A stretch of 12,600 nt of DNA, from contig CAAENW010000016.1 of the NCBI GenBank assembly GCA_900757265.1, positions 1 to 12,600 of the forward strand, given 5' to 3'. Shown here one piece after another: positions 1,300 to 12,600 of this stretch; position 1 is the stretch's first letter; every line of letters starts with the position of its first letter. Under the pieces are notes generated by a model that had not been told where the DNA came from, did no database searches, and saw only the letters and a program-made list of their open reading frames with translations. The position numbers and the translations under genes were made by a program. Origin of the DNA: an uncultured Collinsella sp. (GTDB taxonomy: Bacteria > Actinomycetota > Coriobacteriia > Coriobacteriales > Coriobacteriaceae).

Positions 1300-1863
1300 T
1301 TAAGGCTCTTTTTTGCTTTGCACGCCCTTGGCCCACTCGGCACTGGCTCTCATGGCGTTCTCGAGGGCCTCGCGCAGTTTTTGGTCTTCGATGGGCGCCA
1401 CTTGGCGCTCGATCTCGGTGCGCTCGGCCTCACTTAGGTCGGCGCGCGGGGCCGGCGGGTGCTCGGTCACGGCCGGGCGTAGGCGCTCCTTGGCGGCGGG
1501 CGGCGTGTGACCGGGCGCGGTGGTTTTGAACACCAGGCCGTCCACATGCGCACCGGCACGCTCCATGCGCGCGCGGATGATCTCGCGCAACAGCGTCATT
1601 TCCTGCGTCCACGAGGGCGAGTCGAGATACACCAGCAGCTCATTGGACTCGGGCAGGTAGCGCAGGCCCGTCACATGCCGCCCCTCGCGCGTGCCCGAGC
1701 ACACCGCGTTCCATGCGCGATAGACCGCGCGCGACTCCTCGGCGGCCTCCATCTGCGCACGGCGCTCAGGCGTCGCCGACGCCAGGATGCGCTGGCGCTC
1801 TGCGTTCAAAAAGCCATTGAAGGCGACCGTTTCGCTCTCGCGCTCGTAATTAGCACGTCTCAC
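1300..1863 (-). CDS. DUF721/DciA-family protein (probable DnaB helicase-loading factor)
   Basis: 187 residues. The DUF721 core spans about residues 45-113: a WNAVCSGTREGRHVTGL segment, a predicted strand LLVYL (76-80), then DSPSWTQEMTLLREIIRARM (81-100), matching the family pattern of W..v.G....ht followed by a hydrophobic strand and S..W..El. A Pro/Ala-rich linker and a charged helical C-terminal tail (about 142-187) follow. In actinobacteria the gene between recF and gyrB is the DciA orthologue (Mycobacterium Rv0004), which works with the replicative helicase at initiation; the function here is inferred from family and position. The start is GTG at 1863, overlapping the recF stop by 14 bases; the AAGGTGGTGAG just upstream could serve as ribosome binding site, and coupling to recF is likely. 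No in-frame ATG is available near the start. Confidence 0.85.
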   Translation of the reverse strand: MRRANYERESETVAFNGFLNAERQRILASATPERRAQMEAAEESRAVYRAWNAVCSGTREGRHVTGLRYLPESNELLVYLDSPSWTQEMTLLREIIRARMERAGAHVDGLVFKTTAPGHTPPAAKERLRPAVTEHPPAPRADLSEAERTEIERQVAPIEDQKLREALENAMRASAEWAKGVQSKKEP

Positions 1864-4069: not shown

Positions 4070-4079
4070 CTTTTAATAC

Positions 4080-4137
4080 CTTTCTATAGATATAAATATC
4101 TTAATAATAGTAATAGCACTGACGAAACTGTTGATTA
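4080..4137 (-). other. Putative origin-unwinding element: DnaA box, DnaA-trios, AT-rich DUE
   Basis: Read on the minus strand, the element runs as a DnaA-box-like TAATCAACA (4137-4129, seven of nine against TTATCCACA), a 12-base spacer GTTTCGTCAGTG, five perfect DnaA-trio triplets (4116-4102; CTA TTA CTA TTA TTA, whose complement read 3' to 5' is five [G/A]AT units), then an almost pure A/T stretch to about 4083 that contains the near-palindrome AGATATAAATATCT. This order matches the basal unwinding system described in B. subtilis (DnaA box, GC-containing spacer, DnaA-trios, unwinding region) and lies in the usual place between dnaA and dnaN. The assignment is by pattern only; the same bases also form the dnaN leader. 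Confidence 0.6.
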
Positions 4138-4201
4138 CTCCCTAAGACGCAGGTCAGACCCAGAAAGAGAATCGACAGCAACCTGTGTGCAACAGGGGTG
4201 G

Positions 4202-4295
4202 TTTTCCACGTTCAAAACCTGCGCAAAACTTTTCATCACCGCGAGTTGGGTTTTAGACACCTTATGCCCGTGGTTTCGACAAGTTTTCAACAGGT
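4202..4295. other. DnaA-box-like cluster just downstream of dnaA
   Basis: This part of the 238-base dnaA-dnaN gap holds TTTTCCACG (4202-4210, seven of nine to the canonical box), TTTCGACAA (4274-4282) and TTTTCAACA (4284-4292). The remainder, about 4138-4200, shows no clear signal beyond a small CCTGT/ACAGG inverted pair at about 4182-4196. Likely part of oriC together with the unwinding element at 4080-4137. Confidence 0.5.
4282..4295 (+). other. DnaA-box-like element, copy 1 of a shared 14-mer
   Basis: AGTTTTCAACAGGT on the plus strand. The reverse complement of the same 14 bases occurs twice in the 7401-7745 gap. The core TTTTCAACA matches seven of nine positions of the canonical DnaA box. 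Confidence 0.55.
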
Positions 4296-4307
4296 GTCTC
4301 TATTTCC

Positions 4308-6032
4308 CTACGAGCGCAGTGTAATTTTATCGCGCAGCGACTTGAGGTCTTCGGTGACGGTGCGGTCTTCCTGGATCATCTTCTGGACCTTTTTGTAACT
4401 CGTGCTGACGGTCGAGTGGTTGCGGTTGCCAAATTCGGCGCCCACCGCCGTGGTCGTCATCTCGCACATCTCGATGGCCAGGTAGATAGCGATATGGCGT
4501 GCTTTGGCGATATTGGCGTTGCGACGCGGGCCGATGAGCTCCTCGTGCGTCACGCCGTACTGCTCTTCGATGACGGACTGAACCGTCTGGACGTTGATCT
4601 TTTTGGCCGATGTGTCAAAGTACTGGCTGGCGATGGCGTCGATATCGTCAAAGGTGAGCTCCCCGCCCTCGCGCTCGCGGTCGCCCGCCTCGCCGGCGCA
4701 GCGCTCGCAAAAGCTCTCGAGTTCGCGGATGTTGGTGCCCGAGACCTCGGCCATGTGTTTAAAGTGCTCGTCGGTTAGGTGCCCGCCGTCGCCCCCATAG
4801 GCCGCCAGCAGCGAGTCGTCGCCTGCCTCGGGAGCGGCGACGATGGTGTTCTCGTAATAGCGCTGCAAGATCTTGTATTTCATTTCGTAGCTGGGCTCTG
4901 CGACCAGGCAGAGCATGCCGGCGTTGAAGCGGCTGGTTAGACGCTCGTCCATGCTCAGGTCCTTGGGGGCGCGGTCTGCCGCGATGACGACCTTCTTGTT
5001 GTTGCGGATGAACTCGTCCATGAGCTGGAAAAAGTAGTCCACGCTCGCGCGCTTGCCGATGATGTTTTGGATGTCGTCGATGATGAGCACGTCCACGCCG
5101 TGGTACGCCTGCATGATGGGGGCGTTGCTCTTCTTTTGGCGGTCGAACTCGGTCATCAGGTCGTCCAGATATGCCTGGGAGTTGGCATACTTGACCTTGA
5201 TCTCGGGCGACTTTTCGGCGAGCTCGTTTTTGATGGCAAGCAGCAGGTGCGTCTTGCCCAGGCCCGATTTGCCGTAGATGAACAGTGATGTGCACGTGCC
5301 CCGCTCGTCCGCGAGGGCGGCAAACTTGAGTGCCGAGCGATAGGCATGGCTGTTCTCGGGGCCGTAGACAAAGTTCTCAAAGGTAAATTTTGAGTTCGCG
5401 GCGAGCGGGGCTCCATCCGTATTCTGTTCGGCCGGCGCGGTCGGTGCTGGCATGGGTGAAGCGGGGGTCGCAGCTTGCGTGGATTTAGTTGGCGCTCCGC
5501 CCTTCATCTGGTTCATCATGCGACGAAAATCATCGGCCGAGAGCGTGTTCTTGATTGCAATGCCCGAATCCGCGCCCGTCGTTGCGTCGTGAGCGATGGG
5601 CATGTGCGTGACGGGTGCGTTCGTTGACGTCGCCGCCGCGGTCGGCAACGGTGCCATGGTTTCACGGGAAACATCGCTGTGCTGGTGCCCGATTGTCGGC
5701 ACGTCGCCTGCGGAGGCCGGCGCCGCCGGGGAAGCAGCGGGGGCCGTGGCGGGCGCCGTCGCGGCAGCGGATTCCGTCGCGGCGCCTTGCGGTGCCACGA
5801 TGTCGAGCGCAATCGGTGCAAAGGCGATTTCTTCCAGATAGGCCTCAATGGTCGGCTGATGCTTTTTGAGCTGCGCGATGGCAAAGCGCGAGGGGGCCTC
5901 GATCGTGAGCGTATCTTCGGTTAGGCTTATGGCGCGCGATTGCCCCAGCATGTTGATGAGGCGTGCATCTTGGCCGTCGCGCTGGCAAAAGGCGATGGCA
6001 TCCCCCAGGATGATGCTTGCTTCCTCGTCCAC
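4308..6032 (-). CDS. dnaA: Chromosomal replication initiator protein DnaA
   Basis: AAA+ ATPase that binds DnaA boxes and melts the origin. 574 residues, longer than the usual 440-520 because of domain II. Domain I covers about 1-80. Domain II (84-213) is Ala/Pro/Thr-rich and probably disordered. The AAA+ domain III (about 215-435) shows FENFVYGPENSHAY, Walker A GKSGLGKTH (254-262, K260), Walker B VLIIDD (315-320), sensor I ADRAP (352-356) and the Arg finger in LTSRFN (R368). DNA-binding domain IV (about 480-574) has GPRRNANIAKARHIAIYL and the DnaA signature GNRNHSTVSTSYKKV (535-549), with Asn at the position that is normally Asp in R-D-H. The start is GTG at 6032, preceded by GGGAGAG five bases away; the ATPase gene ends 15 bases upstream, so the two are probably co-transcribed. 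The stop TAG is at 4310-4308. Confidence 0.98.
   Translation of the reverse strand: MDEEASIILGDAIAFCQRDGQDARLINMLGQSRAISLTEDTLTIEAPSRFAIAQLKKHQPTIEAYLEEIAFAPIALDIVAPQGAATESAAATAPATAPAASPAAPASAGDVPTIGHQHSDVSRETMAPLPTAAATSTNAPVTHMPIAHDATTGADSGIAIKNTLSADDFRRMMNQMKGGAPTKSTQAATPASPMPAPTAPAEQNTDGAPLAANSKFTFENFVYGPENSHAYRSALKFAALADERGTCTSLFIYGKSGLGKTHLLLAIKNELAEKSPEIKVKYANSQAYLDDLMTEFDRQKKSNAPIMQAYHGVDVLIIDDIQNIIGKRASVDYFFQLMDEFIRNNKKVVIAADRAPKDLSMDERLTSRFNAGMLCLVAEPSYEMKYKILQRYYENTIVAAPEAGDDSLLAAYGGDGGHLTDEHFKHMAEVSGTNIRELESFCERCAGEAGDREREGGELTFDDIDAIASQYFDTSAKKINVQTVQSVIEEQYGVTHEELIGPRRNANIAKARHIAIYLAIEMCEMTTTAVGAEFGNRNHSTVSTSYKKVQKMIQEDRTVTEDLKSLRDKITLRS
5658..5673 (-). other. Degenerate parS site inside dnaA
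   Basis: On the plus strand the 16 bases GGTTTCACGGGAAACA match the parS consensus TGTTTCACGTGAAACA at 14 of 16 positions. It encodes the peptide VSRET (residues 121-125) in the disordered domain II of DnaA; VSRET is also what a perfect parS encodes in this frame. ParB binding here is inferred, not shown. Confidence 0.5.
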
Positions 6033-6047
6033 TATCTCTCCCGTTCT

Positions 6048-7400
6048 TTAGCTCTGAGCTCGCACGCGAGCGGCGCCGAGTTCGGTCAGATGGTATTTCT
6101 GGCCATGCTTGATGACCAAGCCGGCCTGCGCCAAGTCATTGAGCGTGCGTGACCAAGTGGGGGCCGAGTTTCCAAACGCCCTCGCCAGATCGGTAGCACC
6201 GCACGCTTGATTTTGCGCCAGATAGCCCAGCGCGGCGTTGCCGCGATCGCTTACGAACACGTCCGGTTGTGGCTGCGCATACTGATTTGCTGCATTAGGA
6301 TACATCATTTGAGCTGCTGGTTGTTGAGAACTCTGCATCGGCGGCATTTGCTGTTGAAAACTTTGAGGCCACTGTTGGTAAGGCTGCGGAGGCATCTGCT
6401 GGGCCCAGGGGTTGTACTGCTGCTGCGGCATCTGCTGGTACGGCTGCTGATATCCCTGCTGGTACTGCTGCGGGAACTGCTGGCCATACCCCAGTGGCTG
6501 CATCTGCTGATATGGATATCCCTGTTGGTACGGCTGATAGCCCATTTGCTGGCCACCCGGTGCCCCCGTCGCCTGCTGCATTGCTGCTGTATCCTGATCC
6601 GCCAGCGGCATGGCCTCTGGCATGTTTGGCGGCATCGACATCGACGCCGCCTGGGGCTCTTGTGTAGGAAGCATTCCGGGCTGCTGCATCTGTCCCACGC
6701 GGGGCTGCATCTGTTGCGTTGCCATGGGCTGCTGCGCAAAAGCTCCCGGCAGGGGATATGCGGGCTGCTCCGTCTCGGGCCGCACGGCAGCACCGCGCCC
6801 GCCGGCGCGTTCGATTTCCTGCACGCGTTTAGGGTCCAGGCTTACCGTAACCACGGTGCCGTTGCCCATATTGTCCTCGATGGACACGGCCCCGCCGGCG
6901 TTTTCCAAATACTCCTGCACCATGGGAAACCCTGCTCCGGTTCCACGGATATAGCGCTTCATCTTGCTGTTTGCGCTGGTAACGCCAAAGTCGAAAGCGC
7001 GCTCCTTGTCGTCGATGCCGGGTCCTTGATCAGCAAAGCGGATGGTGTCTCCGCCGTCCAGAATCGAGATGATGGGCTCGGCAAAGTGTGCGTGGATAAA
7101 GTTTTCGACAATCTCGCGGATGACCATGAGCGAGATGTGGCCACCTTGCTCTTTCATACACTGGTAGACGGTGTTGGTCGTCTCTTCCAAATACGTGCGG
7201 ACATCTTGCGGATCAATGACGATCACACGCGGTGTCGACAGCATGTCGTCATAGACGGCGATGCGCGCGGCGTACATGGCTTTTGACGCCTGCGTGGTCG
7301 TCTGCTCGCCTTCCTTACGCTCTTCGCGCACGCCGGTGATGTGCTCGTTGTCGGGTGCCGGGTCTCCGGAATCGACCATGGTGTAAAAGTCGTCAGACAT
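6048..7400 (-). CDS. GHKL ATPase - Gln/Pro-rich linker - winged-helix protein, upstream of dnaA
   Basis: 450 residues with three parts. Residues about 50-190 form a GHKL (histidine-kinase-like) ATP-binding domain: N box IREIVENFIHAHF (94-106, E96 and N100), G1 box DQGPGI (124-129), G2 GTGAGFPMV (153-161) and a closing GNGTVVTVSL strand. There is no phosphoacceptor-His/dimerisation domain and no membrane segment, so it is closer to SpoIIAB/RsbW-type anti-sigma kinases than to a sensor kinase. Residues about 211-380 are a low-complexity Gln/Pro/Met/Tyr-rich linker. Residues 381-446 resemble a MarR-like winged helix, with a helix pair (GYLAQNQACGATDLARAFG), a likely recognition helix and the wing VIKHGQKYHLTELG. 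It ends 15 bases before dnaA and so probably shares its transcript. The ATG at 7400 is the first start after an in-frame TGA; the ribosome binding site is weak (AAAG, 12 bases away). A nucleotide-responsive DNA-binding regulator is an inference; I know no characterised protein of this layout. Confidence 0.85.
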   Translation of the reverse strand: MSDDFYTMVDSGDPAPDNEHITGVREERKEGEQTTTQASKAMYAARIAVYDDMLSTPRVIVIDPQDVRTYLEETTNTVYQCMKEQGGHISLMVIREIVENFIHAHFAEPIISILDGGDTIRFADQGPGIDDKERAFDFGVTSANSKMKRYIRGTGAGFPMVQEYLENAGGAVSIEDNMGNGTVVTVSLDPKRVQEIERAGGRGAAVRPETEQPAYPLPGAFAQQPMATQQMQPRVGQMQQPGMLPTQEPQAASMSMPPNMPEAMPLADQDTAAMQQATGAPGGQQMGYQPYQQGYPYQQMQPLGYGQQFPQQYQQGYQQPYQQMPQQQYNPWAQQMPPQPYQQWPQSFQQQMPPMQSSQQPAAQMMYPNAANQYAQPQPDVFVSDRGNAALGYLAQNQACGATDLARAFGNSAPTWSRTLNDLAQAGLVIKHGQKYHLTELGAARVRAQS

Positions 7401-7481
7401 GCCGCTCGCAATCTTTCAAAAGGTTTCGAACAAATAGTAGCTCACCGTGCAATGTTTCTCATCTTTCGACAACTTTTCAAA

Positions 7482-7495
7482 ACCTGTTGAAAACT
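7482..7495 (-). other. DnaA-box-like element, copy 2 of a shared 14-mer
   Basis: ACCTGTTGAAAACT on the plus strand, so the box TTTTCAACA reads on the minus strand. Identical to the copies at 7535-7548 and, inverted, at 4282-4295. Confidence 0.6.
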
Positions 7496-7534
7496 TTGGA
7501 AAACGGACGAAAAGTTCTCAACATTGCCAACATG

Positions 7535-7548
7535 ACCTGTTGAAAACT
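7535..7548 (-). other. DnaA-box-like element, copy 3 of a shared 14-mer
   Basis: ACCTGTTGAAAACT again, same orientation as the copy starting 53 bases to its left (about five helical turns), placing both on nearly the same DNA face. Confidence 0.6.
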
Positions 7549-7643
7549 CGATGAAATATCGTGAAAAGTTGCCATGCACCGCTAAATCGAGCTCGGCTTA
7601 TGGGGGAACCGTGTGAACTGCGCAACCTTTTACCTTTGATTTC

Positions 7644-7673
7644 TTGACATTTGAACATTGATTTCCCTACAAT
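7644..7673 (+). promoter_or_regulatory. Strong sigma-70-type promoter for rpmH-rnpA operon
   Basis: A perfect -35 TTGACA (7644-7649) and a -10 TACAAT (7668-7673, five of six) are separated by 18 bases. Transcription would begin near 7680, leaving a leader of about 65 bases before rpmH. No other promoter-like sequence is visible until after the jag terminator, so it probably serves rpmH through jag. Confidence 0.88.
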
Positions 7674-7745
7674 CTTCAAGCTCACGTGTCTATATCTGCG
7701 TCCGCGCCCCCGTGGACACTCGAAATGCAGCAGGAGGAACTTAAG

Positions 7746-7880
7746 ATGAAGCGTACGTATCAGCCTAATAAGCGTAAGCGTGCCAAGACCCATGGCTTCC
7801 GTGCCCGTATGGCCACCAAGGGTGGTCGTGCCGTGCTCGCCCGTCGTCGCGCCAAGGGCCGCAAGCGTCTCACTGTCTAG
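7746..7880 (+). CDS. rpmH: 50S ribosomal protein L34
   Basis: 44 residues, extremely basic, with the full family sequence pattern: [20 protein letters not shown] at the start, then [24 protein letters not shown]. It is a component of the large ribosomal subunit. The ATG at 7746 is preceded by AGGAGGAA six bases away, an excellent ribosome binding site. An in-frame upstream extension (from about 7686) is rejected because L34 begins with MKRTYQP. It is the first gene of the rightward operon, with rnpA 20 bases downstream, the near-universal partner arrangement. Confidence 0.98.
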
Positions 7881-9304: not shown

Positions 9305-9874
9305 ATGTCTGAAGAGATCATCGAGGATATGCTTGAGGAGGTTGCCCCGCAGGTCGCGGGCGATTATCCCGAGATTGCACAGCGCTACAAGGCTGGTGAA
9401 GAGCTGACCGACGAGGAGCTCGACACCATTGCCGATGTCGCGATTTCCATCCTGCGTTCCATTCTTTCGCACTTCGATGCCGCCAACTCTCCTATCGATG
9501 AGTATGAGGGCGACGAGGGTGAGCTGATTCTGGATGTAACGGCTCCCGACCTTGCTGTTCTCATTGGCCGTCATGGTCGCACCCTTGATGCCCTTCAGGT
9601 TATGTTCTCATTGCTGGTGAGCCGCAAGCTTGGCTTTAGGTATCCGGTTGTAGTGGACGTCGAGGGATACAAGAGCCGCCGTCAGGACAAGGTTGCCTCC
9701 ATGGCACAGTCTGCAGCCGAGCGTGCCATCCGCACTCATAAGAGTGTTTCGCTTCCGCCCATGAATGCCTATGAGCGCCGACTGGTTCACATTGCACTTC
9801 GTGGCAATGATGCCGTCGATACTCATTCTGAGGGTTCTGACCCTGGTCGCCATGTGGTGATTGTTGCTCGATAA
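9305..9874 (+). CDS. jag: Jag/KhpB family RNA-binding protein (KH and R3H domains)
   Basis: 189 residues. Residues about 1-45 are acidic and helical, with no canonical Jag_N domain, so this is a short form. A KH domain follows (about 48-120) with the GXXG loop in LIGRHGRTLDAL (86-97), then the R3H domain (about 123-189) with the R-x3-H motif R158 to H162 in ERRLVHIAL and the closing THSEGSDPGRHVVI. Homologues (KhpB/EloR) bind RNA with KhpA and affect cell elongation and division in Firmicutes; the role here is inferred. I chose ATG at 9305 over the upstream TTG at 9293 because GGAG ends six bases before the ATG and would lie inside the coding region for the TTG start. It lies 44 bases after yidC and ends the operon at a strong terminator. 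Confidence 0.93.
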   Translation: MSEEIIEDMLEEVAPQVAGDYPEIAQRYKAGEELTDEELDTIADVAISILRSILSHFDAANSPIDEYEGDEGELILDVTAPDLAVLIGRHGRTLDALQVMFSLLVSRKLGFRYPVVVDVEGYKSRRQDKVASMAQSAAERAIRTHKSVSLPPMNAYERRLVHIALRGNDAVDTHSEGSDPGRHVVIVAR

Positions 9875-9892
9875 TCTGCTCGAGCTTATGCT

Positions 9893-9924
9893 AAGGGGAC
9901 GTGGTTTCCACGTCCCCTTTTTTT
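9893..9924 (+). terminator. Intrinsic terminator after jag
   Basis: A 12-base-pair perfect stem (AAGGGGACGTGG at 9893-9904 with its complement at 9908-9919) closes a TTT loop and runs into seven T residues (9918-9924). It begins 19 bases past the jag stop and closes the rpmH-to-jag operon. The rsmG start region lies within 50 bases downstream. Confidence 0.95.
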
Positions 9925-9970
9925 GTCAAAAGTTCTCGATACACTGATTTTTGTCAGAAAGGAGCTTTCG

Positions 9971-10708
9971 TTGTTAGTACTTACTGATCAGCAAGCTGAC
10001 GAGATGTTGACTCGTCTATCTTCCTATTGCAAAGAGTATTCCTTGAGCGTATCTGATGTTGAGCTGAGGAAATGTATTCAGCATTTGGATTTGGTTCTGG
10101 AAACAAATAAGACAACTAATCTCACCCGTATTCTTAACGTAGAAGATGCTGCGGTACTTCATATCCTCGACTCACTTGTTTTGCTCCCCTATATCAATAA
10201 GGCTCCTGAGGGAGCTTTGCTCGATATGGGAACAGGTGCGGGCTTCCCAGGTATTCCTTTAACCATAACCACACATCGTAAAGCTACTTATATTGACTCT
10301 GTTGGCAAGAAGGTTGATGCTGTCAATTCTTTTGTTCATGCTCTTGGATTGAAACATGCTCATGCGGTCCATGATCGTCTTGAAGAATATGCTCGAAGCC
10401 ATAAGAAGCAGTTCTCTGTCGTAACTGCCCGCGCACTGGCTCCTCTACCGATTCTTGTTGAGTATGCAGCTCCGTTCCTCAAGGATGGAGGGCTATTTGT
10501 TATCACCAAGGGCAATCCTTTGGATGAGGAGCTTGCTTCCGGCATGTCAGCAGCTAAGATTTGTGGCTTCACTTTGCTTCTGAATGACGCAATCGATTTG
10601 CCTGAGGGCTTGGGCCACAGAGAGTTCATTGTTCTTAAAAAGAGTCATCCAGCATCCGTTTCATTGCCTCGTGCAAATGGCATGGCAAAGAAGAATCCGC
10701 TTGCCTAG
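9971..10708 (+). CDS. rsmG: 16S rRNA (guanine-527-N7)-methyltransferase RsmG
   Basis: SAM-dependent methyltransferase (GidB) that makes m7G527 in 16S rRNA. 245 residues. The SAM-binding motif is LLDMGTGAGFPGIPL (83-97), followed by VTARALAPL (151-159), GGLFVITKG (173-181) and the terminal strand HREFIVLKK (216-224). I chose TTG at 9971 because AGAAAGGAG lies exactly six bases upstream; longer in-frame readings back to 9923 would start inside the terminator's T tract. Its promoter should lie in 9925-9960, where TACACT at 9940-9945 is a possible -10 with no good -35. The DNA is visibly more AT-rich than the genes to the left. The TAG stop is one base before the first parS site. Confidence 0.93.
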   Translation: MLVLTDQQADEMLTRLSSYCKEYSLSVSDVELRKCIQHLDLVLETNKTTNLTRILNVEDAAVLHILDSLVLLPYINKAPEGALLDMGTGAGFPGIPLTITTHRKATYIDSVGKKVDAVNSFVHALGLKHAHAVHDRLEEYARSHKKQFSVVTARALAPLPILVEYAAPFLKDGGLFVITKGNPLDEELASGMSAAKICGFTLLLNDAIDLPEGLGHREFIVLKKSHPASVSLPRANGMAKKNPLA

Positions 10709-10709
10709 A

Positions 10710-10725
10710 TGTTTCACGTGAAACA
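10710..10725. other. parS site 1 (ParB-binding centromere)
   Basis: A perfect TGTTTCACGTGAAACA palindrome, extended to 18 bases by flanking A and T. It begins two bases past the rsmG stop codon. Confidence 0.97.
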
Positions 10726-10748
10726 TAATGGATACTAACAACTTGCAG

Positions 10749-10764
10749 TGTTTCACGTGAAACA
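10749..10764. other. parS site 2
   Basis: A perfect TGTTTCACGTGAAACA. Starts exactly 39 bases after the start of site 1. The flanks (G and T) do not extend the palindrome. Confidence 0.97.
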
Positions 10765-10787
10765 TGGCGGTTGATATCGAATCGGAA

Positions 10788-10803
10788 TGTTTCACGTGAA
10801 ACA
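10788..10803. other. parS site 3
   Basis: A perfect TGTTTCACGTGAAACA, again 39 bases on from site 2, extended to 18 bases by flanking A and T. It lies 39 bases before the parA start codon, so ParB bound here could also affect parA transcription. Confidence 0.97.
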
Positions 10804-10842
10804 TCCTCCGTTTGACAGCTTTAATACACACCAGGAGGGACC

Positions 10843-11643
10843 GTGGGATTTCGCGACGTTAAGCGTTCTAAGAGCGCAAAAGACACGCGTATCATTGCAA
10901 TCATCAATCAAAAAGGCGGCGTCGGTAAGTCAACGACGGCTGTAAACCTTGCAGCAGCACTGGGTGAGCAGGGTCGTAAGACACTGATTGTCGATTTTGA
11001 TCCGCAGGGAAACAGTACCAGTGGATTTGGAATTGAAAAAGAAGACCTTGATCACTGCATCTATGATGCATTGTTGAATGATGTGCCGGCAGAATCGCTT
11101 GTTCTTGATACAAATTGCAAAAAGGTATTCGTAATTCCAGCTACGATTCAGCTTGCAGGTGCCGAAATTGAGCTCGTAAGCGCAATTGCTCGTGAAACCC
11201 GCCTCAAAGATTTGCTTGAGCCGATTCAGGACGAGTTCGATTTTATTTTCATTGACTGTCCTCCTTCGCTCGGCCTGCTTACTATCAATGCCCTGACCGC
11301 AGCAGATAGCGTTTTGATTCCAATCCAGTGTGAGTATTACGCACTCGAGGGCGTTACGAAGCTGCTTGAGTCAATGAAGATGGTCAAATCACGTCTGAAC
11401 AAGGGCTTAGACACCTATGGCGTGCTTATGACCATGTATGACTCACGTACTTCTTTGTCGAATCAGGTTGTTGAGGAAGTTCAATCGTACTTTGGTGATA
11501 AGGCGTTTAAGACGCTGATTCCCCGTACGGTTAAAATCTCTGAAGCTCCGTCTTTTGGAGAACCGGTAATTACCTATGCACCTCAAAATAAGGGTGCAAA
11601 AGCGTATATGAACCTTGCAAAAGAGGTGATCAAGCGTGCCTAG
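10843..11643 (+). CDS. parA: Chromosome-partitioning ATPase ParA (Soj)
   Basis: Deviant-Walker ATPase that binds DNA non-specifically when ATP-bound and moves ParB-parS complexes apart. 266 residues. Deviant Walker A is KGGVGKSTT (24-32, signature K24 and catalytic K29), A' is VDFDPQGN (50-57), Walker B is FIFIDCPPSLG (134-144), and MTMYDSRTSLSNQVVEEVQ (196-214) carries the family's DNA-binding Arg region. The start is GTG at 10843 with AGGAGG four bases upstream. The N-terminal 14 residues before RIIAIINQKGG are a short basic extension. parS sites lie directly upstream, and parB overlaps the end by eight bases. TTGACA at 10812-10817 looks like a -35 but has no matching -10 at normal spacing before the start codon. 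Confidence 0.97.
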   Translation: MGFRDVKRSKSAKDTRIIAIINQKGGVGKSTTAVNLAAALGEQGRKTLIVDFDPQGNSTSGFGIEKEDLDHCIYDALLNDVPAESLVLDTNCKKVFVIPATIQLAGAEIELVSAIARETRLKDLLEPIQDEFDFIFIDCPPSLGLLTINALTAADSVLIPIQCEYYALEGVTKLLESMKMVKSRLNKGLDTYGVLMTMYDSRTSLSNQVVEEVQSYFGDKAFKTLIPRTVKISEAPSFGEPVITYAPQNKGAKAYMNLAKEVIKRA

Positions 11644-12541
11644 TGCAAAGAAACGTGGAGGATTGGGACGTGGACTCAATGCTTTGGTCTCAGAGGCAGA
11701 GTATGAGACCGGTAGTTCGGCTGCATCGGCTTCAAATGCCGCATCTGAAACTAAACTGCCTATTGAGGATATCGTTCCCAACCCTAATCAGCCGCGAATT
11801 CATTTTAACGAAACTGAACTTCGAGAGTTGAGCGAGTCGATTCAAGAACATGGCGTTTTGCAGCCTCTGTTGGTTCGCAAGCATGGAAACGGCTATGAGA
11901 TCATTGCTGGTGAGCGCCGTTACCAGGCGTCAAAGCTTGCTGGTCTTGAGGAACTGCCTGTCATCATTAAGGAAGTTAATGATGAGGAGATGCTCGCTCT
12001 TGCTCTTATCGAGAATCTTCAACGTTCTGATTTGAATCCCGTCGAAGAGGCGAAGGGTTATCGTCAGCTCATTGATGCCAGCGGTATGACACAAGAGGCG
12101 TTATCAAAGGCTGTCAGTAAGTCTCGTTCTGCAATTACAAATTCACTTCGTTTGCTAGATCTTCCCGAAGTCGTACAACAGATGATTTTCGAGGGAAAGC
12201 TTACTGCGGGACATGCGAGAGCGATTCTTGCAGTTCCATATGAAGATGCCAGGATTCGACTTGCTGAGAAGGTTGTTGCAGAAGGTCTTTCCGTTAGAGC
12301 GACAGAAAATCTTGCTCCGTTGTTTTCTGCCGGAGAGACGCCAAGGACTCCGAGGCCAGCAACACCTCAGTCATTCAAAAAGGCCGCTCGAGTCCTTCGT
12401 CAAGTTTTCAACACGAATGTTCGTGTGAAGAGCTCGCGTGGTAAGAACAAAATTGAAATCGAGTTCAAAGACGAAGAAGAGCTCTCCCGTATCCTTGGCG
12501 AGATGATTCAATTTGGGCAGGAGGATCAGGATGAAGAGTAA
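11636..12541 (+). CDS. parB: Chromosome-partitioning protein ParB (Spo0J), CTPase
   Basis: CTP-dependent DNA clamp that loads at parS, spreads, and is moved by ParA; it also recruits SMC in many bacteria. 301 residues. The ParA-stimulating N-terminal peptide is KRGGLGRGLNAL (6-17). The ParB/Srx domain has NPNQPR (49-54), HGVLQPLLVR (72-81), GERRYQASK (92-100) and ENLQRSDLNPVEEAKGY (126-142), the CTP-binding boxes. The helix-turn-helix that reads parS is at about 150-178 (MTQEALSKAVSKSRSAITNSLRLLDLP). The C-terminal dimer domain is at about 245-292, after a Pro/Thr-rich linker. The start is GTG at 11636 with GAGGTGAT five bases upstream, overlapping the parA stop by eight bases; the alternative downstream ATGs would remove the ParA-contact peptide. 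Confidence 0.97.
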   Translation: MPSAKKRGGLGRGLNALVSEAEYETGSSAASASNAASETKLPIEDIVPNPNQPRIHFNETELRELSESIQEHGVLQPLLVRKHGNGYEIIAGERRYQASKLAGLEELPVIIKEVNDEEMLALALIENLQRSDLNPVEEAKGYRQLIDASGMTQEALSKAVSKSRSAITNSLRLLDLPEVVQQMIFEGKLTAGHARAILAVPYEDARIRLAEKVVAEGLSVRATENLAPLFSAGETPRTPRPATPQSFKKAARVLRQVFNTNVRVKSSRGKNKIEIEFKDEEELSRILGEMIQFGQEDQDEE

Positions 12542-12600
12542 GGTTCTCGCGGTCATTGCGTTTGCAACCACCGTCGCCGCTGGTGCTTTTGCTGGTTATA
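12531..12600 (+). CDS. N-terminus of an unidentified exported or membrane-anchored protein (runs off the edge)
   Basis: 23 codons are visible: MKSKVLAVIAFATTVAAGAF followed by AGY. Two lysines before a hydrophobic Ala/Val-rich stretch look like a signal peptide or a single N-terminal membrane anchor. The ATG at 12531 has AGGAGG six bases upstream, inside parB, and overlaps the parB end by 11 bases in another reading frame. The good ribosome binding site and signal-like start make it a real gene rather than a chance ORF, but the family cannot be told from what is visible. Confidence 0.6.
   Translation, partial: MKSKVLAVIAFATTVAAGAFAGY

Follow-up and report, generated by a model that had tools for sequence, protein, structure and literature searches.

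What does a predicted ATP-binding protein do directly in front of dnaA? The question is raised by a 12,600-nucleotide (nt) stretch from an uncultured Collinsella sp. (assembly GCA_900757265.1, contig CAAENW010000016.1), hereafter the window, in which a gene on the minus strand (6048..7400; 450 amino acids) joins a GHKL ATP-binding domain to a winged helix. The GHKL-winged-helix gene starts with ATG, ends in a TAA stop codon (6048-6050) and is presumed to be the first gene of an operon, before dnaA. We propose, with about an even chance of being right, that it encodes a one-component regulator that binds DNA in an ATP-dependent manner and specifically serves the dnaA operon, the surrounding origin or both. 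The gene lies directly before dnaA in most sampled Coriobacteriia and in many deep-branching actinobacteria, and therefore probably helps to control initiation. The family is real and old, its positional tie to dnaA is strong, and it is apparently unstudied.

The domain architecture of the window protein largely bore out the original prediction, which had been made from the DNA letters alone. A GHKL domain with N, G1 and G2 boxes and no phosphoacceptor domain was confirmed by Pfam and by an alignment of 128 sequences. This domain (6831..7268, minus strand; approximately residues 45-190) was recognized by Pfam, by AlphaFold2 and by its match to histidine-kinase and SpoIIAB folds; HATPase_c (PF02518) matched residues 93-190 above the family cut-off (E 5.3e-11) and was found in all 34 family members scanned. 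Conservation in the alignment marked the N-box E96-x-x-E99-N100 (7101..7115), the G1 box D124-Q-G-P-G128 (7017..7031) and the G2 box G153-T-G-A-G157 (6930..6944), all on the minus strand; from these site residues and the fold, the domain is predicted to bind ATP. No DHp or HisKA family appeared among the window protein's 12 Pfam matches at E up to 1, and no HisKA-type family among the 25 Pfam families listed for the 34 members. A plain sensor kinase was rejected on this basis.

The C-terminus (6051..6260, minus strand; approximately residues 381-450) is a winged-helix DNA-binding fold, as had been predicted: it matched several winged-helix families in Pfam, all below cut-off (HVO_A0261_N, 1.3e-7; MarR_2, 2.3e-4; HTH_IclR, 1.1e-3), and AlphaFold2 gave a confident domain at 381-450. 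With a 34-row alignment, the confident domains covered approximately residues 41-200 (10-residue means of the predicted local distance difference test, pLDDT, 86-98) and 381-450 (94-98), and the stretch between them was poorly predicted. For the compact relative L119, a 74-row alignment gave the same two domains at a mean pLDDT of 86.7. Low pLDDT, composition and a length survey define the intervening stretch (6261..6800, minus strand; approximately residues 201-380) as a disordered linker rich in glutamine and proline (51 Q and 31 P per 180 residues). The low-complexity linker of the original prediction is thus present, and is slightly longer, at about 180-195 residues, than the 170 first given. 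Part of its Gln-rich sequence is encoded by a CTGCTG-type tandem repeat of period 12/24 at 6414-6482.

The ATP-binding residues have not been lost in most homologues. N100, D124, G126, G128, G153, G155 and G157 were each present in 128/128 aligned sequences, E96 was kept in 125, and all eight ATP-site residues were intact in 125 of the 128. The winged helix was recognizable in the 39 aligned members from outside Coriobacteriia; R386, G401, T415, R418, L420, L423, K435 and G442 were shared by 87-98% of all rows, and R418 by 39/39 of the outside rows. Linker length was not conserved, the median being 181 residues for the window's family, 33 for most of the other families in the class and 23 for members outside it, so the emphasis first placed on a long linker holds for Collinsella and its kin but not for members outside the class. 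Two loci with a broken or mis-seeded frame (L085 and L107) were left out of the protein tables, each with dnaA downstream; L146 was left out of the combined alignment, and the start codons of relatives were set by a mechanical rule.

We surveyed the distribution of the gene across Coriobacteriia and Actinomycetota. In the window, as the original prediction had it, the gene ends 15 nt before the start of dnaA on the same strand (dnaA, 4308..6032, minus; GTG at 6032; Bac_DnaA 1e-41 and Bac_DnaA_C 8.2e-21 in Pfam). The minus strand showed no terminator-like site within 5950-7800, and strand and spacing indicate that the two genes are likely co-transcribed. Twenty loci in genomes titled Collinsella bear the gene (81-99% identity over the best segment). 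Across the class, it was matched in 264 of 296 genomes and 111 of 125 genera (E<=1e-6). We read 110 class loci, of which 30 were the top matches and 80 were selected, for the most part one from each genus. In 106 of them dnaA came next on the same strand, and at the other four (L075, L112, L128 and L129) the contig stops before dnaA could appear. The spacing between gene and dnaA had a median of 19 nt and a maximum of 406, with 86 of 105 rows, the window included, at no more than 100 nt. Divergent rpmH flanked the gene on its other side in 99 of 108 tabulated class loci. Five class loci (L081, L085, L086, L087 and L100) have the block inverted relative to dnaN, with the gene and dnaA still paired.

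Re-searching the 32 class genomes that had no match, with a 34-row profile, returned only weak matches, in 18 of the genomes (best 4.6e-10). Twenty-one of the 32 also had no dnaA match; their assemblies probably lack the origin. Among the remaining 11, which do have dnaA, two loci were cut by contig ends, and in nine the rpmH-dnaA interval gave no profile match. The gene is found nearly throughout Coriobacteriia and is lost or dispensable in some lineages, since these nine genomes have dnaA behind rpmH without it. Two of the nine (G162 and G227) belong to a genus, g18, in which other members carry the gene, and all nine are natural comparisons for its function.

The same profile matched 157 of 396 Actinomycetota genomes at E<=1e-15, 38 within the class and 119 outside. 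Of 40 outside loci that we read, 34 had dnaA downstream (median spacing 12 nt; 34/34 at most 100 nt), and at the other six the contig ends no more than 371 nt from the gene. One of the outside loci, L145, stops 23 nt past the gene, before any dnaA; its protein has the same sequence end as family member P0301, an "ATP-binding protein" of Miltoncostaea marina (Thermoleophilia). Linkage in relatives had been set beforehand as a test of the original prediction, and every one of the 140 loci where the contig continues had dnaA as the next gene on that strand (106 in the class and 34 outside). The pairing is present in at least two classes of Actinomycetota. Seven match-less outside genomes (L208-L214) showed no profile match near dnaA, and in two with weaker matches (L215 and L216) the gene precedes dnaA; two BLAST matches, one to DnaA upstream in L145 and one to GHKL in L213, have no profile support. 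Two taxonomic labels in the family call for care. One protein, P0359, bears a Firmicutes label, of a kind that can err, and another, P0158, carries the label Clostridiales but matches the L119 protein, from a genome placed in Coriobacteriia by kinship, at 100% identity, so that its label is probably wrong.

The DNA around the gene is rich in DnaA-box-like sites. Between rpmH and the GHKL-winged-helix gene (7401..7745), the window carries DnaA boxes at 7474-7482, 7485-7493, 7515-7523 and 7538-7546, in agreement with the earlier placement of the gene start at the edge of a box cluster; the divergent rpmH promoter (7644-7673) lies in the same region. Allowing one mismatch, TTTTCAACA occurs at 12 sites in the window against 2.05 expected, four of them upstream of the gene. 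The dnaA-dnaN intergenic region (4070..4307) holds a second cluster (for example, 4284-4292) together with a DnaA-trio-like repeat, TAATAATAGTAATAG, at 4102-4116. The original prediction was silent on this second cluster and its repeat, as it was on the conserved inverted pair described below. Degenerate boxes in class loci reached 5.8 per kilobase (kb) upstream of the gene and 4.6 between dnaA and dnaN, against 0.55 inside the gene; outside the class the corresponding densities were 5.4 and 12.2, against 0.85.

In three of four groups TAGTAG, which we take to resemble the DnaA-trio element, was enriched chiefly in the dnaA-dnaN region, where most copies point the same way (reverse/forward counts of 10/0, 20/2 and 18/3). 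This enrichment was absent in the four loci of the window's own family, and a weak enrichment was seen upstream of the GHKL-winged-helix gene in two groups. Together, boxes and repeats suggest a likely bipartite origin with its unwinding side at dnaA-dnaN, which would place the GHKL-winged-helix gene between two box clusters. At the five loci with an inverted block, strict DnaA boxes fell 11 to 1 on the gene's side, part of which may be old dnaN-proximal DNA. An Rfam scan of the window gave no match.

Two of the boxes upstream of the gene form an inverted DnaA-box-like pair with a 2-nt spacer (7474..7493), a candidate control site with one mismatch in the window to the consensus YTWTCMACA-NN-TGTKGAWAR. 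A motif search with DnaA boxes masked showed an excess of inverted repeats at spacers 2 and 4 (outside the class, for example, 39 versus 19.6), all traced to a single element, this pair; the 2-nt spacer was clearly preferred. Other enriched words were set aside as the rpmH promoter, the ribosome-binding site or features of single lineages, such as CCAGGTCA in 4/9 loci of group f3. With mismatches at no more than 2 of its 18 positions, 69 of 114 loci had the pair upstream of the gene (13/14 in the window's family, 6/24 in group f2, 2/9 in f3, 26/33 in the rest of the class and 22/34 outside). By comparison, it occurred in none of 90 dnaA-dnaN regions and in 3 of 114 gene bodies, and shuffled sequences never contained it. 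It lies a median of 143 nt (range 1-228) from the gene start, and 73 nt from it in the window. Exactly one site with at most one mismatch was present in 25 of 27 genomes, each just upstream of the gene, 26 of the 27 having been chosen for having the pair. Because the consensus came from the loci first counted, the pair was tested on other genomes: among 52 gene-bearing genomes unused for the consensus, it stood just before the gene in 32 (14/18 in the class and 18/34 outside), with five other sites in all. It was absent from all six genomes of family f36 among the 52.

The base composition of the pair bears on what might read it. Outside the class, half-site position 3 is T in 36 cases and A in 8, against 15 T and 30 A in other boxes; in other families of the class the counts are 40 T and 5 A against 73 T and 97 A. 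This bias hints at a special reader, and shared descent could also produce it. Position 6 follows the box type of the lineage, being A in Collinsella kin and mostly C elsewhere. The nine gene-less class genomes, one of which keeps the pair at no more than two mismatches, cannot decide the reader, because the gene-bearing relatives that can be checked in the families concerned are also weak in the pair (2/9 in f3; four to five mismatches in L096, L121 and L127). We do not claim the pair as the protein's own operator, as genomes without the gene carry it too. The pair belongs to the dnaA region and does not depend on the GHKL-winged-helix gene, being perhaps a pair of DnaA boxes or a site that both proteins read.

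These observations suggest how an ATP-dependent regulator of the dnaA operon could work. The GHKL domain, whose site residues and fold were observed, is predicted to bind ATP. The winged helix would bind DNA, most simply in the stretch crowded with boxes that separates its own gene from rpmH, and the conserved 20-bp inverted repeat would fall within the bound region. DNA binding would then change with nucleotide state, or with a partner bound to the GHKL domain, as the pairing of the two domains suggests. The output could be dnaA transcription, presumably starting ahead of the GHKL-winged-helix gene, how readily DnaA reaches the origin, or both; because dnaA comes next in what is probably one transcription unit, the protein would act on itself and on DnaA alike. 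Much the same interpretation, an ATP-responsive DNA-binding regulator, had been offered originally; it is plausible and now partly supported, and that a signal from a nucleotide or a partner would be passed on to dnaA or the origin is what we infer. A bolder form is possible but doubtful: an origin ATP switch as old as the phylum, its winged helix at the single-copy DnaA-box-like inverted repeat, competing for or sharing the site with DnaA between the clusters of a bipartite oriC. That such a switch would have persisted in Coriobacteriia, in Thermoleophilia and in further deep Actinomycetota, and be missing from many other genomes of the phylum, is put forward just as tentatively. Initiation control by a GHKL ATP switch would, to our knowledge, be unlike any known class.

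Several points weigh against a dedicated regulator of dnaA or the origin. Position alone proves little, because genes of the origin area keep their order anyway, and nine class genomes with an assembled origin (L197-L202 and L205-L207) are without the gene. The inverted pair is present in 8 of 19 phylum genomes that have no such gene, in seven of them within about 0.7 kb of a dnaA match, and DnaA itself may read it, because its halves resemble DnaA boxes. E96 is absent from 3 of the 128 sequences. Finally, over 94 loci the distances within the family track those of DnaA (r 0.611) no better than those of YidC (r 0.698), so nothing points to a special co-evolution with DnaA; the pattern is as expected under vertical descent. 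The mean divergence of the family over these loci, on the other hand, equals that of DnaA (0.591 versus 0.602), a sign of constraint that speaks for the proposal.

Some of the same evidence can be read as regulation of DnaA by protein contact, in the manner of DiaA, HobA or SirA: the GHKL domain would bind DnaA, for example at domain I, the winged helix would serve only as an origin anchor, and the pair would be DnaA's own. The persistence of the gene-dnaA pairing when the block is inverted fits such contact, as does a pair that is DnaA-box-like, agrees with the lineage's own boxes at position 6 and is also present where the gene is not; PMC13270200 also describes DnaA domain I as a hub for taxon-specific regulators. 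We nevertheless regard contact as unlikely, given that the known DnaA-binding regulator families are absent from the window protein's Pfam matches at E up to 1, that divergence from relative to relative follows YidC as well as DnaA, and that the good conservation of the winged helix points to DNA.

Two further explanations separate the protein from DnaA. It could be a serine kinase or anti-sigma factor of the SpoIIAB/RsbW type with an added winged helix, acting by ATP-dependent partner switching on a sigma factor or its antagonist. This is quite unlikely: its immediate neighbours are rpmH (dnaN if inverted) and dnaA, with no sigma or anti-anti-sigma genes, its sequence is nearer the ATPase domains of histidine kinases (sporulation kinase B, 5.4e-11), and HATPase_c_2 (PF13581) was matched in 1 of 34 members at E<=0.01. 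A plain SpoIIAB/RsbW homologue was set aside owing to the winged helix and the neighbours. Alternatively, a transcription regulator with an unrelated regulon might merely be housed in the origin cluster, like rpmH, yidC, jag and rsmG. Other non-replication genes do sit there, and the gene is dispensable in some lineages, yet it shares the strand of dnaA, precedes dnaA wherever this is visible, moves with it on inversion and does so in at least two classes of the phylum, which together make simple hitch-hiking quite improbable.

An open-access literature search found no paper on the GHKL-winged-helix gene or its place and no description of the family, in keeping with the original view that no regulator with this layout had been described; source records name members generically, as ATP-binding protein, histidine kinase, anti-sigma regulatory factor or hypothetical protein. 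Nor did the search find a paper on the regulation of initiation in Coriobacteriia or other deep Actinomycetota. In the part of PMC13270200 available to us, the sampling includes Rubrobacter once and neither Coriobacteri- nor Collinsella. The DUF3566 protein SCO3872, which PMC4255298 lists as always near oriC, is different from the GHKL-winged-helix one.

Coriobacteriia are common gut bacteria. A conserved ATP-binding and DNA-binding protein co-encoded with dnaA is one candidate for their control of initiation, and it comes with clear mutants (N100, E96, and the winged helix) as well as a well-defined DNA target, the 7474-7493 inverted pair. If the proposal is true, a GHKL protein would read nucleotide state at the origin; we know of no initiation regulator that does so through a GHKL protein.

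The rest of the window contributed two side observations. DciA, the ancestral helicase operator, is encoded between recF and gyrB (1300-1863, minus strand; PF05258, E 2.5e-6). Guanine-plus-cytosine content is about 44-48% over rsmG, parA and parB (about 9750-12600), compared with about 57-67% in most sub-windows of the left part.

How, then, does the protein compare with known systems? The catalytic domains of sensor histidine kinases (HK853, PhoQ, WalK and sporulation kinase B) are nearest by sequence and among the top Foldseek matches for the GHKL domain, but those proteins differ in that here no DHp or HisKA was among the families listed and no response-regulator gene is an immediate neighbour. 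The GHKL domain shares the fold of SpoIIAB; unlike the single-domain SpoIIAB/RsbW anti-sigma kinases, the window protein and its aligned relatives have an additional linker and C-terminal winged helix. Known regulators of DnaA include DiaA, HobA, SirA, Hda and YabA, and the likeness to them is of proposed role only, none being among the window protein's Pfam matches at E up to 1. A GHKL domain followed by a winged helix is also found in DIP2311 of Corynebacterium diphtheriae (PDB 3lmm); however, a root-mean-square deviation of 8.0 over both domains indicates a different domain arrangement, and HATPase_c_4 and AlbA_2 are absent from the window protein's matches at the same threshold. We take DIP2311 to consist of AlbA_2, HATPase_c_4 and a winged helix and to belong to COG2865, predicted transcriptional regulators, and we know of no linkage between it and dnaA. 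Compared with winged-helix regulators of the MarR, IclR and TrmB types, the window protein is distinguished by having its winged helix joined to a GHKL ATPase.
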